A stretch of 64,000 nucleotides of DNA from Beijerinckia sp. 28-YEA-48 (GTDB lineage Bacteria > Pseudomonadota > Alphaproteobacteria > Rhizobiales > Beijerinckiaceae), in assembly GCF_900104955.1 (NCBI RefSeq), contig NZ_FNSI01000001.1, positions 1,274,001 to 1,338,000 of the forward strand, read 5' to 3'. The notes under the pieces were generated by a model that saw only the letters and a list, made by a program, of their open reading frames with translations, was not told where the DNA came from and made no database searches. The position numbers and the translations under genes were made by a program. Of this stretch, positions 35,903-40,381 are shown piece after piece (position 1 is the first letter of the stretch; the number at the start of each line of letters is the position of its first letter).

Positions 35903-36835
35903 CTATGGCGCTTTCGGAATATCGAGGGTTTCGAGGCGGCTCAATTCGGCATATTCGGCGGCGAGAAAGTCCATCAATGCGCGCACCGAGGGCAAAAGGC
36001 CACGCCGGGATGGGAAGGCGGCGTGGATGATGCCCGTGCGCGGCGCCCAGCCGGGCAGAATGTCGATCAGCCGGCCGGCCCGCAGGTCCTCTTGGACCAC
36101 CATGGTCGGAAATTGGCAGACACCGATGCCAGCGAGCGCCGCCTCGCGCAGCGCCACCATATCCTCGGTCAAAAGCCGGGGGCGGTGCGGGATTTTCGCC
36201 GTCGCGCCGTCCGGGCCATCGAGGCACCAGTCATGATCACTGTGCGCCGGGCCCCAGGCCAGGCTCGGTAGGGTGGTGAGATCGGCCGGCACCAGTGGAT
36301 GCGACAGGTCTTTGATCAGCGTAGGGCTCGCCACCAAGCGTTGGATGCTGTCGGCAAATTTGCGGATGATCAGATCGCTGTCGTCGAGCGGCGGAAAGCG
36401 CACGCGGATGGCGAGATCGAAGCCTTCGCGAATGACATCCACCCGCCGGTTGGTGCTGTCCAACATCACTTCGACCTGCGGGCAGGCGGCCATGAAGCGG
36501 GCGATCATGGCGCCAAGCTGAAAGTAGATCACCGATGAGGGGCAGCTGACCCGCACGAGACCACGCGGCTCGCCGCGCATGCGCTGGACGGCCTCCGTCG
36601 CTGCCTCGGCTTCCACCACCATGGCGACGCAGTGGCGATAGAATTCGCGGCCGACGTCAGTGACGGCGAATTGTCGGGTGGAGCGTTGGATAAGGCGGAC
36701 GCCGAGACTTTCCTCCAGCAGTCCGATGCGGCGGCTGAGCCGCGAGCGCGGCATGCCGAGCTTGCGAGCGGCGGCTGAAAAGCCCTTTTGCTCAACCACA
36801 TCGACGAAGAGCTTGTAGTCGTTCAGATCCGGCAT
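35903..36835 (-). CDS. LysR-family regulator divergent from pirin
   Basis: A 310-residue LysR protein: HTH YKLFVDVVEQKGFSAAARKLGMPRSRLSRRIGLLE, then RLIQRSTRQFAVTDVGREFYRHC and an effector domain. It belongs to the DsdC/AaeR-like group often placed next to pirin genes. ATG at 36835 opens a divergent intergenic region (36836-36938) shared with the pirin gene, in which TGTCC-N8-GGACA is the likely operator. Confidence 0.92.
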   Translation of the reverse strand: MPDLNDYKLFVDVVEQKGFSAAARKLGMPRSRLSRRIGLLEESLGVRLIQRSTRQFAVTDVGREFYRHCVAMVVEAEAATEAVQRMRGEPRGLVRVSCPSSVIYFQLGAMIARFMAACPQVEVMLDSTNRRVDVIREGFDLAIRVRFPPLDDSDLIIRKFADSIQRLVASPTLIKDLSHPLVPADLTTLPSLAWGPAHSDHDWCLDGPDGATAKIPHRPRLLTEDMVALREAALAGIGVCQFPTMVVQEDLRAGRLIDILPGWAPRTGIIHAAFPSRRGLLPSVRALMDFLAAEYAELSRLETLDIPKAP

Positions 36836-36867: not shown

Positions 36868-36938
36868 GTCTAGCGTGAAATCGCCGTCTACAGGAATTTT
36901 TGATGCGTATCTATCTCGCTGCCAACAAGGAGAGTGAG

Positions 36939-37805
36939 ATGAAGAAAGTTCTCGGAACCTACAGTAGCCCGCGACCCCACTGGGTTGGCGACGGCTTCCC
37001 CGTGCGCTCGCTGTTCTCCCATGGCAGCCATGGCGAGCATATCAGCCCGTTCCTGCTGCTCGACTATGCCGGCCCGGCGGATTTCAAGCCGACAGACACG
37101 CCCCGTGGTGTTGGGGTTCACCCGCATCGCGGCTTCGAGACCGTGACGATCGTCTATAAGGGCGAGGTAGAGCATCGCGACTCCACCGGCCGAGGCGGTG
37201 TCATCGGACCGGGCGACGTGCAGTGGATGACGGCGGCCGGCGGCATTTTGCACGAGGAGTTCCATTCCAAGGCGTTCACCGCCAAAGGTGGCACGCTGCA
37301 GATGGTGCAGCTCTGGGTCAATCTGCCGAAGAAGGACAAGGACGCCGAGCCTGGCTATCAGAGCATCGTCAACGGCGACATTCCCGCGGTTGATCTGCCC
37401 GAAGGGGCCGGCACGCTCCGGGTGATTGCTGGTGATTATGACGGCAAGCGTGGTCCGGCGCGCACCTTCACGCCAATCGAGGTGTGGGATGTGGCGCTGA
37501 AACCGGGCGCGACGGCGCGGTTGCCGGTGCCCGAGGGCCATTCGACGGCTGTGGTCGTGCTGGAAGGCGTGGTCGAGGTGAACGGCGAGGCCATTGCGCG
37601 TGAGGCGGAATTCGTTCTGCTCGATCGCCAGGGCAGCGAGATCACCATCGAGGCCAACGGCAATGTGCGCCTGCTTGTGCTGGCTGGCGAGCCGATCGAC
37701 GAGCCGGTGGTCATGCACGGTCCGTTCGTCATGAACACGAAGGAAGAGATCGTGCAGGCGATGACCGACTTCCAAAGCGGTCGCTTCGGCGCCATCCCGG
37801 CCTAA
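36939..37805 (+). CDS. Pirin-family cupin protein 1
   Basis: A 288-residue bicupin of the pirin family. The N-terminal cupin has the four expected metal ligands, in VHPHRGFET and ILHEEF (two His, then His and Glu). The C-terminal domain ends with the conserved EPIDEPVVMHGPFVMNTKEEI. Pirins act as quercetinases or redox-sensing regulators. ATG at 36939 follows AAGGAGAGTGAG. LysR-pirin divergence is a recurring arrangement, suggesting control by the LysR protein, probably under oxidative or phenolic stress. A strong terminator follows. Confidence 0.94.
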   Translation: MKKVLGTYSSPRPHWVGDGFPVRSLFSHGSHGEHISPFLLLDYAGPADFKPTDTPRGVGVHPHRGFETVTIVYKGEVEHRDSTGRGGVIGPGDVQWMTAAGGILHEEFHSKAFTAKGGTLQMVQLWVNLPKKDKDAEPGYQSIVNGDIPAVDLPEGAGTLRVIAGDYDGKRGPARTFTPIEVWDVALKPGATARLPVPEGHSTAVVVLEGVVEVNGEAIAREAEFVLLDRQGSEITIEANGNVRLLVLAGEPIDEPVVMHGPFVMNTKEEIVQAMTDFQSGRFGAIPA

Positions 37806-37829: not shown

Positions 37830-37868
37830 GCCGCCGCTCTGGAGTTCTCTCCAGAGCGGCGGCTTTTT
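37830..37868 (+). terminator. Rho-independent terminator after pirin 1
   Basis: GCCGCCGCTCTGGAG and CTCCAGAGCGGCGGC form a perfect 15-bp stem with a TTCT loop, followed immediately by TTTTT. It also separates the convergent cytochrome c gene, whose stop is at 37870. Confidence 0.9.
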
Positions 37869-37869
37869 G

Positions 37870-38205
37870 CTATGGGTCGATGATCTTCTTCACGTCGACG
37901 GCGGCCGGTCGCGACGAGAGATAGGCGTGGATCGCCTGTAAATCCGGCTCGGGGAGAACCTGCTCGCGGAATGGCGGCATCTGGCGCGAACTGCTTCTGA
38001 CGAAGGCTGAGAAACCTTCGTAAGGCAGCGGGTCTGGAGCAAGTTTGGGGCCGGCCGAAGTGCCTTGGCCCTCGGTTCCGTGGCATTGCCAGCAGCCATA
38101 TTTCAGGAATTGCGCATGGCCGGTGTCATCAGCCGCCGCCGCCGGCAGATAAGAGCCGAGGAGCACCGCAAAGCTGAGGGACGTGAATTTCAAGGTTCTC
38201 ATCAT
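37870..38205 (-). CDS. Small periplasmic class I cytochrome c
   Basis: A 111-residue exported cytochrome with a signal peptide (residues 1 to about 25, ending PAAAA). One heme c attaches at C38-W-Q-C41-H42; the distal axial ligand is probably M76 in RQMPPF. The start pair ATGATG at 38205 has GAGG seven bases ahead. It begins 4 bp after the ThDP-enzyme stop, so the two are co-transcribed, which points to cytochrome c as electron acceptor of that enzyme. This functional pairing is inference from genomic position and shared periplasmic location. Confidence 0.92.
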   Translation of the reverse strand: MMRTLKFTSLSFAVLLGSYLPAAAADDTGHAQFLKYGCWQCHGTEGQGTSAGPKLAPDPLPYEGFSAFVRSSSRQMPPFREQVLPEPDLQAIHAYLSSRPAAVDVKKIIDP

Positions 38206-38209
38206 CACG

Positions 38210-40186
38210 TTACCTCGGCTGGCAGACGACATCGACGAGAGCAGGCTCGCCACTTTTGACAACTTCCACCGCGCGTTTGAGCGCTGCGGGCAGATCCTTG
38301 GGATCTGTGATCGGCCCGGCCGACCAGACGCCGAGCGATGACGCCAGTTTGGCGAAATCGATATTCGGGTTCTCGATACCGGTGCCGACCGGCACCATGC
38401 CGCCGCCGAGATTGGCGACACGATTATGCCGGTTCGCCATGCGCTGCACGTGCATCACCTCCTGATGATAGGCGCGGTTGTTGTGCATGACGTTGAGCAG
38501 CGGGATCTTGTGATGGGCAGCTGTCCACAGCACGCCCGGCGCATACATGAGATCGCCGTCCGCCTGGATATTGACCGAGAACCGGCCGAAGGCCTTATTG
38601 GCCAAAGCGGCGCCCAGGGCTGCCGGTGCGCCGTAGCCGACGCCATAGCCTCCGGCACCGCCGATGAACTGATAGTACTTGTCGAAGGGCCAAAGCCGCG
38701 TCGGCCAGGAGCTGTGAAAGCTATCGCGGCTGACCATGGACCAGTCTTCGCCCTTGATCTGATTCCAGATTTCAGCGCAGAGCCGCGCCGTGCTGATAGG
38801 CTGGGCATCCCAGGCGATGCCGGCCGCGGCGATTGAGCGTGCGCGGTTTTCGCTCCAGGCTTTCTTGTGGCGATCGGCGCGCTGGCTGAGCGCGTCCTTC
38901 TTGCTGGCCGGCAGAGCCGACTTGATGAATTCAATCAACTGCGGCAGCGAGGCTTCGGCATCGCCGGCCATGCCGATGTCGACCGACTGGAAGCGCTGGA
39001 AATCCTGGAAGTTGGCTTTCGTCAGCAGTTCAGCCGATGAGATCGAGATCAGCTTGGCTGACGGTTTGGTCGTCGGCTCCTGTATGCCGTGGCCGTGATT
39101 TTCCTCATTGTCGATATAGCCGTTCACTGTGCCCCAGAAGTCGGACAGTTCGAGGCCAAGTACGACGTCGGCTTGGGCGATCAGCGCGCGCCCGCGCGCC
39201 GATTGATTGAGATAGTGGTTGGTCGCGATATTGAGGCGGCCGAGCTGGTCGATGACCGGTGCCTGCAAGGTTTCGGCGAGTTCGGTCACCAGGCGCAGGC
39301 CAGCTGGCGTGCGCGCGGCGCGATCGGCGATGATCACCGGGTTTTCCGCTGCTGCGAGCAGTTTGGCGGCCTCACGCAAGGCTGCGGTGTCGGCCTGTGG
39401 CGGGGCGCTCGGCACATATTTGGGAATCTGGAGTTTTTCGCCCCTCGGAGCTTCCTCTTGCAAGCCGGCGTCGAGGGAGATCGCGACCGGTTCGTAAGGC
39501 GGCGTCATGGCGATGCGATAAGCCCGGACCATCGATTGCGCGAAGTGATTCAAGGAAACCGGTTGATCATCCCATTTGGTGAAATCGCGGATGATGGCAT
39601 TGGGATCCTGCGCCGCATGGAAAGTCGGCACACCAGGCGGCCGCGTCGCGGCGTCGAGATGATTGCCGCCGATGACGATGATGGGGACGCGATCGCACCA
39701 GGCGTTAAAAATACCCATGGTGGCGTGCTGCAATCCGACCGTGCCGTGAACCAGAACGGGTAAAGGCTTGCCGGAGATCTTGAAATAGCCGTGCGCCATG
39801 CCGACCGCTGACTCTTCGTGCATGCAGGTCAGCATTTCCGGCATTTTATTGCCGCCGTAGTTGATCAGCGACTCGTGAAAGCTGCGAACGCTCGATGCCG
39901 GATTGGTGAGCAGGTAGTCGAAGTTGAGGGATTTCATGACATCGACCATGAAATCGGAGCCTGGCTTGCGGGCTTCCTCAACGGAAGCCGTCGATATCTG
40001 TCCGACCTCGGCAGCGGCGACCTGGGCATTGGGCGGCAAGGCGCTGGGTTTGGGAGGCGGGAGGTCGAGATGATCGGGCGGTGCCGCCGCGTTGGCGATG
40101 GATGCGCCGGCAACCGTTCCGGACGCACCTGCCGCCACGACCGTTTTTAAAAAGACGCGACGCGAACTTCCTCGAGCATTAGCCAT
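38210..40186 (-). CDS. Tat-exported thiamine-diphosphate enzyme (acetolactate synthase-like)
   Basis: A 658-residue ThDP-dependent enzyme with an N-terminal twin-arginine signal (SSRRVFLKTVVAAG, followed by a hydrophobic run and ANAAA). PYR domain: MHEESAVGMAHGYFKISGKP with E124 as the probable cofactor-activating glutamate. Middle domain: AENPVIIADRAAR. PP domain: a ThDP/Mg motif beginning ADGDLMYAPG and ending with the NN pair of VMHNNRAYH, around residues 540-570. Relatives (acetolactate synthase, benzoylformate decarboxylase, pyruvate oxidase) are nearly all cytoplasmic, so export of a folded ThDP enzyme is unusual. The co-transcribed cytochrome c suggests periplasmic oxidative decarboxylation of a 2-oxo acid. 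Substrate unknown. Confidence 0.9.
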   Translation of the reverse strand: MANARGSSRRVFLKTVVAAGASGTVAGASIANAAAPPDHLDLPPPKPSALPPNAQVAAAEVGQISTASVEEARKPGSDFMVDVMKSLNFDYLLTNPASSVRSFHESLINYGGNKMPEMLTCMHEESAVGMAHGYFKISGKPLPVLVHGTVGLQHATMGIFNAWCDRVPIIVIGGNHLDAATRPPGVPTFHAAQDPNAIIRDFTKWDDQPVSLNHFAQSMVRAYRIAMTPPYEPVAISLDAGLQEEAPRGEKLQIPKYVPSAPPQADTAALREAAKLLAAAENPVIIADRAARTPAGLRLVTELAETLQAPVIDQLGRLNIATNHYLNQSARGRALIAQADVVLGLELSDFWGTVNGYIDNEENHGHGIQEPTTKPSAKLISISSAELLTKANFQDFQRFQSVDIGMAGDAEASLPQLIEFIKSALPASKKDALSQRADRHKKAWSENRARSIAAAGIAWDAQPISTARLCAEIWNQIKGEDWSMVSRDSFHSSWPTRLWPFDKYYQFIGGAGGYGVGYGAPAALGAALANKAFGRFSVNIQADGDLMYAPGVLWTAAHHKIPLLNVMHNNRAYHQEVMHVQRMANRHNRVANLGGGMVPVGTGIENPNIDFAKLASSLGVWSAGPITDPKDLPAALKRAVEVVKSGEPALVDVVCQPR

Positions 40187-40220
40187 GCCAGCCTCCTTGG
40201 TTCAGATCATCCCATCTCAG

Positions 40221-40237
40221 CGCACAGTATTTGTGCG
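40221..40237. promoter_or_regulatory. Inverted repeat upstream of the ThDP-enzyme gene
   Basis: CGCACA-GTATT-TGTGCG, 34 bp upstream of the start codon; a plausible operator or promoter element. No cognate regulator gene is adjacent. Confidence 0.4.
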
Positions 40238-40334: not shown

Positions 40335-40381
40335 CGGTGTCATTCCCGCTCGCCGCCATGCAGCTGTCGAGAATGACACCG
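40335..40381. repeat. REP-like hairpin, copy 3
   Basis: CGGTGTCATTCCCG and CGAGAATGACACCG pair over 14 bp with one mismatch, and a TTTTTT run follows at 40385 on the plus strand. The CGGTGTCATTCCCG arm matches the units at 10135 and 10335. It sits between the ABC transporter gene and the ThDP operon, and could also end transcription. Confidence 0.6.

Follow-up and report, generated by a model that had tools for sequence, protein, structure and literature searches.

Why would an enzyme of the thiamine diphosphate (ThDP)-dependent superfamily carry a twin-arginine translocation (Tat) motif, and why would its gene be followed at once by that of a small c-type cytochrome? This question is raised by a gene pair of Beijerinckia sp. 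28-YEA-48, found in a stretch of 64,000 nucleotides (contig NZ_FNSI01000001.1, positions 1,274,001 to 1,338,000), hereafter called the window, to which the coordinates below refer. We propose, with about an even chance of being right, that the pair is a conserved two-gene module in which the predicted exported ThDP enzyme oxidises a 2-oxo acid or an aldehyde in the periplasm and hands the electrons to the cytochrome. The Tat motif, the ThDP site and a cytochrome of its own recur together; an exported ThDP enzyme with the cytochrome as electron acceptor is the simplest reading. Periplasmic oxidation had already been put forward in an earlier sequence-only reading of this DNA; the conserved Tat motif, the cytochrome linkage and the ThDP residues now speak for it, whereas export, oxidation and electron transfer are still what we infer from these features.

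The gene pair and its products

Both genes lie on the minus strand. The first (38210-40186), identified by Pfam and by its membership of the Tat clade described below, encodes a protein of 658 residues with the N-terminus MANARGSSRRVFLKTVVAAGASGTVAGASIANAAA, in which the motif SRRVFLK, a hydrophobic stretch and the sequence ANAAA precede the three domains of ThDP enzymes. All three domains scored above their Pfam cut-offs (TPP_enzyme_C, 78.8 bits against 21.9; TPP_enzyme_N, 70.3 against 26.8; TPP_enzyme_M, 37.2 against 30.4), and the protein is assigned on these profiles to the ThDP-dependent superfamily. The putative signal region, residues 1-35 (40082-40186, minus strand), was delimited from the sequence. 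The twin arginine and the hydrophobic stretch stand close to the start codon, as in Tat substrates, and the protein is predicted to be exported by this route; TatC is encoded in the same genome, with one match, as are cytochrome c assembly proteins, with two.

The second gene (37870-38205), recognised by Pfam and alignment, is separated from the ThDP stop codon by 4 bp (38206-38209) and encodes 111 residues with a Sec-like leader and a single haem c motif, CWQCH. A 658-residue ThDP protein with a twin-arginine signal, followed 4 bp downstream by a 111-residue CxxCH protein, is what the sequence-only reading had described, and both descriptions hold. The 111-residue protein scored 43.9 bits against a cut-off of 27 for Cytochrome_CBB3 and, with its CxxCH motif and distal methionine, is predicted to be a class I c-type cytochrome; C38, C41, H42 and M76 are invariant in all 75 aligned cytochromes. 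Variants of the partner were observed: two haem motifs in the cytochromes of four Acidobacteriota pairs (L094, L103, L111, L117) and of a pair on plasmid p3 of Caballeronia zhejiangensis, and a ThDP gene followed by two cytochrome genes in Novosphingobium sp. KACC 22771.

Linkage of the Tat motif and the cytochrome

Relatives were taken from genomes of the same genus and order, a one-genome-per-species scan (best 80 of 573 relatives), plasmids, a Pseudomonadota sample, ten other genomes, the phylum of genome G455 and the family of genome G457; because loci came for the best matches only, the set leans to close relatives. After strict removal of copies, the 173 hits were reduced to 134 distinct genes. 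A Tat call required a twin arginine and a hydrophobic stretch near the start codon, by which 106 distinct genes were selected, and a pair was counted as positive when such a gene was followed within 450 nt, on the same strand, by a CxxCH protein fitting a cytochrome profile. The pair was present in 98 of the 105 Tat-motif genes having at least 450 nt of room, and no cytochrome followed any of the 24 genes without the motif; the conservation of the cytochrome neighbour, which had been named as a check of the earlier proposal, is thus borne out. The remaining genes were one Tat gene with less than 450 nt of room (L110), two motif-less genes without room, and two whose N-terminus is cut by the end of the locus and which have the cytochrome. 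When the cytochrome profile was run across the whole loci of the motif-less genes, no hit was obtained. In 75 pairs (those of 74 of the 80 species-scan loci and that of the window), the start codon follows the stop codon at a median distance of 13 nt, with a range of -4 to 197.

The Tat motif is also a property of one lineage. A tree was built from 91 rows, of which 64 carry the motif (a sample, with the window and its identical copy among them) and 27 do not. On it, the Tat label changes once, against 23.5 times on average in shuffles, and the Tat proteins form one side of a single branch, with a Shimodaira-Hasegawa-like approximate likelihood ratio (SH-aLRT) support of 89 in a quick search. 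Among genes whose start lies on the locus, all those with at least 39.5% identity to the window core have the motif and all those with at most 37.5% are without it; the motif is conserved, as the earlier proposal had asked of orthologues. One long row, L005, stands apart in the tree set.

The gene pair spans at least two bacterial phyla. An earlier and looser count, in which CxxCH was unchecked by profile and some genes entered twice in pieces, gave the following named records with Tat motif and cytochrome: 26 Betaproteobacteria, 24 Alphaproteobacteria, 20 Acidobacteriota, 3 other Pseudomonadota and 1 Myxococcota, most of them metagenome-assembled genomes. In the surveys, whose figures are lower bounds because three to five candidates were scored per genome, at least 4 of 398 Pseudomonadota genomes matched at 1e-60 (by the loci read, the Tat form was in the window's own genome alone), as did at least 7 of 247 genomes of the G455 phylum and at least 12 of 250 of the G457 family, 9 of these being of the sister type.

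Active site and family assignment

The structural comparison of the ThDP enzyme consisted of a profile alignment and a fold search, in which benzoylformate decarboxylase was the nearest fold, tied with acetohydroxyacid synthase. E124, which aligns with the catalytic glutamate of benzoylformate decarboxylase, and D543, G544 and N570 are present in all 64 Tat rows, with a spacing of 27 from D543 to N570; H147, aligned to His70 of the decarboxylase, is invariant among the aligned Tat proteins. The essential ThDP residues are thus intact, in agreement with the first description of the site, with one correction: the motif announced as GD...NN is DG...NN, alanine taking the place of the usual glycine ahead of D543. 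Residues 543-576 (38459-38560, minus strand), delimited from the alignments, hold the ThDP/metal motif from D543-G544 to N569-N570 and, just past it, the clade-marking H574-Q575-E576, of which H574 is confined to the Tat clade; Q575 and E576 stand where benzoylformate decarboxylase has A460 and L461. For its His281, no conserved counterpart was found, no histidine being invariant or nearly so at residues 331-392 in A1, a region of low-confidence alignment. H324, considered as the equivalent of this residue, was ruled out by the alignment of the H281N mutant.

Among the matches listed, none of 25 NCBIfam cut-offs was reached by the window protein. The best match, PRK08327 (thiamine pyrophosphate-requiring protein), gave 220 bits against a cut-off of 456; all 26 members of A1 have a match to this family, and it is also the best match, below the cut-off, of four sister proteins that have neither Tat motif nor cytochrome. 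PRK07092 (benzoylformate decarboxylase) was missed with 144.5 bits against 493, and PRK08611 (pyruvate oxidase) with 82.8 against 742. Relatives are named acetolactate synthase or thiamine pyrophosphate-dependent or -binding protein in the databases.

Proposed mechanism and alternative explanations

ThDP sites of this fold sit between subunits, and the enzyme is therefore probably dimeric. In the proposed mechanism, it would fold in the cytoplasm, round ThDP and metal, and would be exported in this folded state by Tat, while the cytochrome would leave by Sec and receive its haem outside. As the fold and the conserved glutamate and histidine suggest, substrate and ThDP would then give the enamine (Breslow) intermediate, which, instead of being protonated to the aldehyde, would deliver two electrons singly to the haem, yielding the acid; the cytochrome would pass them on to a terminal oxidase. 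In its strictest form, with direct transfer from the ThDP intermediate to cytochrome c and neither flavin, iron-sulfur centre nor quinone in between, this would define a new respiratory class of periplasmic ThDP dehydrogenases, through which bacteria would gain energy from keto acids or aldehydes oxidised outside the cytoplasm, with no need to import them, a claim that we make tentatively and judge somewhat more apt to fail than to hold.

Several results weigh against the proposal. The support of 89 for the Tat clade is below the 95 mark. Seven of the 105 Tat genes with room have no cytochrome within 450 nt (L087, L133, L134, L141, L142, L149, L172). Three of these have one in another arrangement: at 460 nt in L149, convergent in L141, and with the other member of a tandem in L142, where the exception is the upstream member. 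The loci of L087, L133 (the gene of L090), L134 (the gene of L092) and L172 hold none, which means that the partner may be missing in some cases or encoded away from the enzyme gene. The gene that follows in L087 (9937-11394) encodes an alpha/beta hydrolase (Abhydrolase_10). Moreover, the cytochrome profile fits several other electron carriers as well or better, no fusion of ThDP enzyme and cytochrome was found among the three odd-length hits inspected (P0010, P0014 and P0019, in which an internal repeat or a longer N-terminus accounts for the added length), and FAD (flavin adenine dinucleotide) could sit between ThDP and haem.

Some of these exceptions have particular settings. L087, L090 and L092 cluster in the tree, and a single loss is therefore probable; in this Acidobacteriota group a same-strand gene of 486-493 residues replaces the cytochrome after the Tat-ThDP gene, the products in L090 and L092 resembling the L087 Abhydrolase_10 protein at the N-terminus. 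The genomes of L141 and L172 also carry a regular pair (L132 and L161, respectively). In the Limnohabitans genome of L141, the CxxCH cytochrome gene (L141:3424-3813, minus strand) lies downstream of the second Tat-ThDP gene, on the opposite strand and convergent with it, and L142 and L158 (G455, contig 15) are two same-strand Tat-ThDP genes in tandem, the cytochrome being with the downstream one.

Several alternative explanations were weighed. The enzyme might be a periplasmic non-redox decarboxylase or carboligase, the aldehyde formed being oxidised by another periplasmic dehydrogenase which the cytochrome serves. The nearest sequence relatives are indeed decarboxylases and lyases, and the cytochrome is absent beside some Tat members. 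The genes within about 8 kb of 81 loci were clustered, and one representative per cluster (two for the receptors) was named by Pfam. Genes of molybdenum-hydroxylase type occur near 7 and aldehyde dehydrogenases near 6 of these loci, the counts being lower bounds because gene calling was crude, and taken without a background control. The cytochrome is the constant neighbour, whereas in this crude clustering no dehydrogenase family is constant, the most frequent other family, the tripartite tricarboxylate receptors, reaching 28 of the 81 loci; we consider this explanation improbable.

Alternatively, the exported enzyme might bind FAD as well as ThDP in the manner of pyruvate oxidase, electrons running from ThDP through FAD to cytochrome c. 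Benzoylformate decarboxylase, the best sequence match, is not known to bind FAD, and such a flavin relay appears unlikely to us. That the N-terminus fails to function as a Tat signal, the enzyme staying in the cytoplasm beside an unrelated cytochrome gene kept by operon inertia, is hardly credible in view of the sharp identity limit of the twin arginine and hydrophobic stretch and of the adjacency retained across phyla.

Comparison with known systems

The nearest working analogue of the predicted exported ThDP enzyme with its own cytochrome is p-cresol methylhydroxylase (PDB 1dii), an oxidising flavoprotein to which a small His/Met cytochrome c belongs as a subunit (PMC6472588). The proposed system shares with it an oxidising enzyme with a dedicated cytochrome, and the two cytochromes resemble each other in sequence and fold; the active-site cofactor of the methylhydroxylase is FAD, whereas the window enzyme has ThDP domains and, by Pfam, no FAD-binding domain. 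Benzoylformate decarboxylase of P. putida (PDB 1bfd) is without the Tat motif, the approximately 70 extra N-terminal residues and the cytochrome partner of the window enzyme. The pyruvate oxidase PoxB is ThDP-dependent, sits peripherally on the membrane and works with FAD and quinone; the window enzyme falls short of the pyruvate oxidase family cut-off. As is proposed for the window enzyme, PoxB carries out the oxidative decarboxylation of a 2-oxo acid and feeds the respiratory chain (PMC11636273).

Dehydrogenases with cytochrome partners are known for flavin, pyrroloquinoline quinone, molybdenum and iron-sulfur centres. The word 'thiamin' occurs 0 times in the available portion of the review that groups them by cofactor (PMC6472588), and a Tat-exported ThDP enzyme is not described in the accessible parts of PMC3305326, PMC6472588 and PMC11636273. 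The pairing of a Tat-motif ThDP enzyme with its own cytochrome was not found described in the literature searched, which took in a minority of subscription papers and no preprints, and neither was a ThDP enzyme exported by Tat. If the proposal is true, thiamine joins the cofactors of cytochrome-partnered dehydrogenases and many proteins now called acetolactate synthase gain another role; the passage of a ThDP-loaded dimer through Tat then becomes a question of its own.

Neighbouring genes and flanking elements

Outside the pair, gene content varies from locus to locus. Apart from the tricarboxylate receptors of 28 loci (of whose two representatives L040 was below and L047 well above the Pfam cut-off), the clusters around the 81 loci comprise amidohydrolases (11), UbiD (10), UbiX-like (7) and SnoaL (7) proteins, again counted without a background control. 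On plasmid p3 of Caballeronia zhejiangensis, the pair adjoins a cluster with a Rieske dioxygenase, a 4-hydroxy-2-oxovalerate aldolase and PdxA. The clusters around the 81 loci hint at aromatic-compound settings; an assignment of the substrate from such crude clusters was rejected. In L050, L052, L053 and L064, the pair is followed, after about 200 nt, by an additional gene of 558 residues with a similar N-terminus, that of L050 being a ThDP enzyme by Pfam. A defence system was considered and discarded, there being no PADLOC match.

Approximately 35 bp upstream of the ThDP start codon lies an inverted repeat with 6-bp arms (40221-40226 and 40232-40237), which the sequence-only reading had taken as a possible control element. 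The repeat exists, but of 1000 simulated upstream regions 9.1% contain at least one like it, and the nearest relative, L039, has a change in one arm; it is therefore regarded as non-significant, and its role as an operator was abandoned. An inverted repeat of 14 nt (93%) at 40335-40381, between the ATP-binding cassette (ABC) gene and the ThDP gene, could be a terminator or one copy of a dispersed repeat. At the other end of the pair, where the cytochrome and pirin genes converge, a perfect 15-bp inverted repeat with a loop of 4 nt (37830-37863), after which TTTTT stands on the plus strand, is terminator-like. The pirin gene (36900-37805) adjoins a gene for a LysR regulator (35903-36835, minus strand), which scored above the NCBIfam PRK14997 cut-off (387.7 against 380). 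A search of the relatives' loci for the pirin, LysR and ABC genes of the window showed the ABC gene alone to recur, in L039; the Caballeronia pair has pirin and LysR genes nearby.
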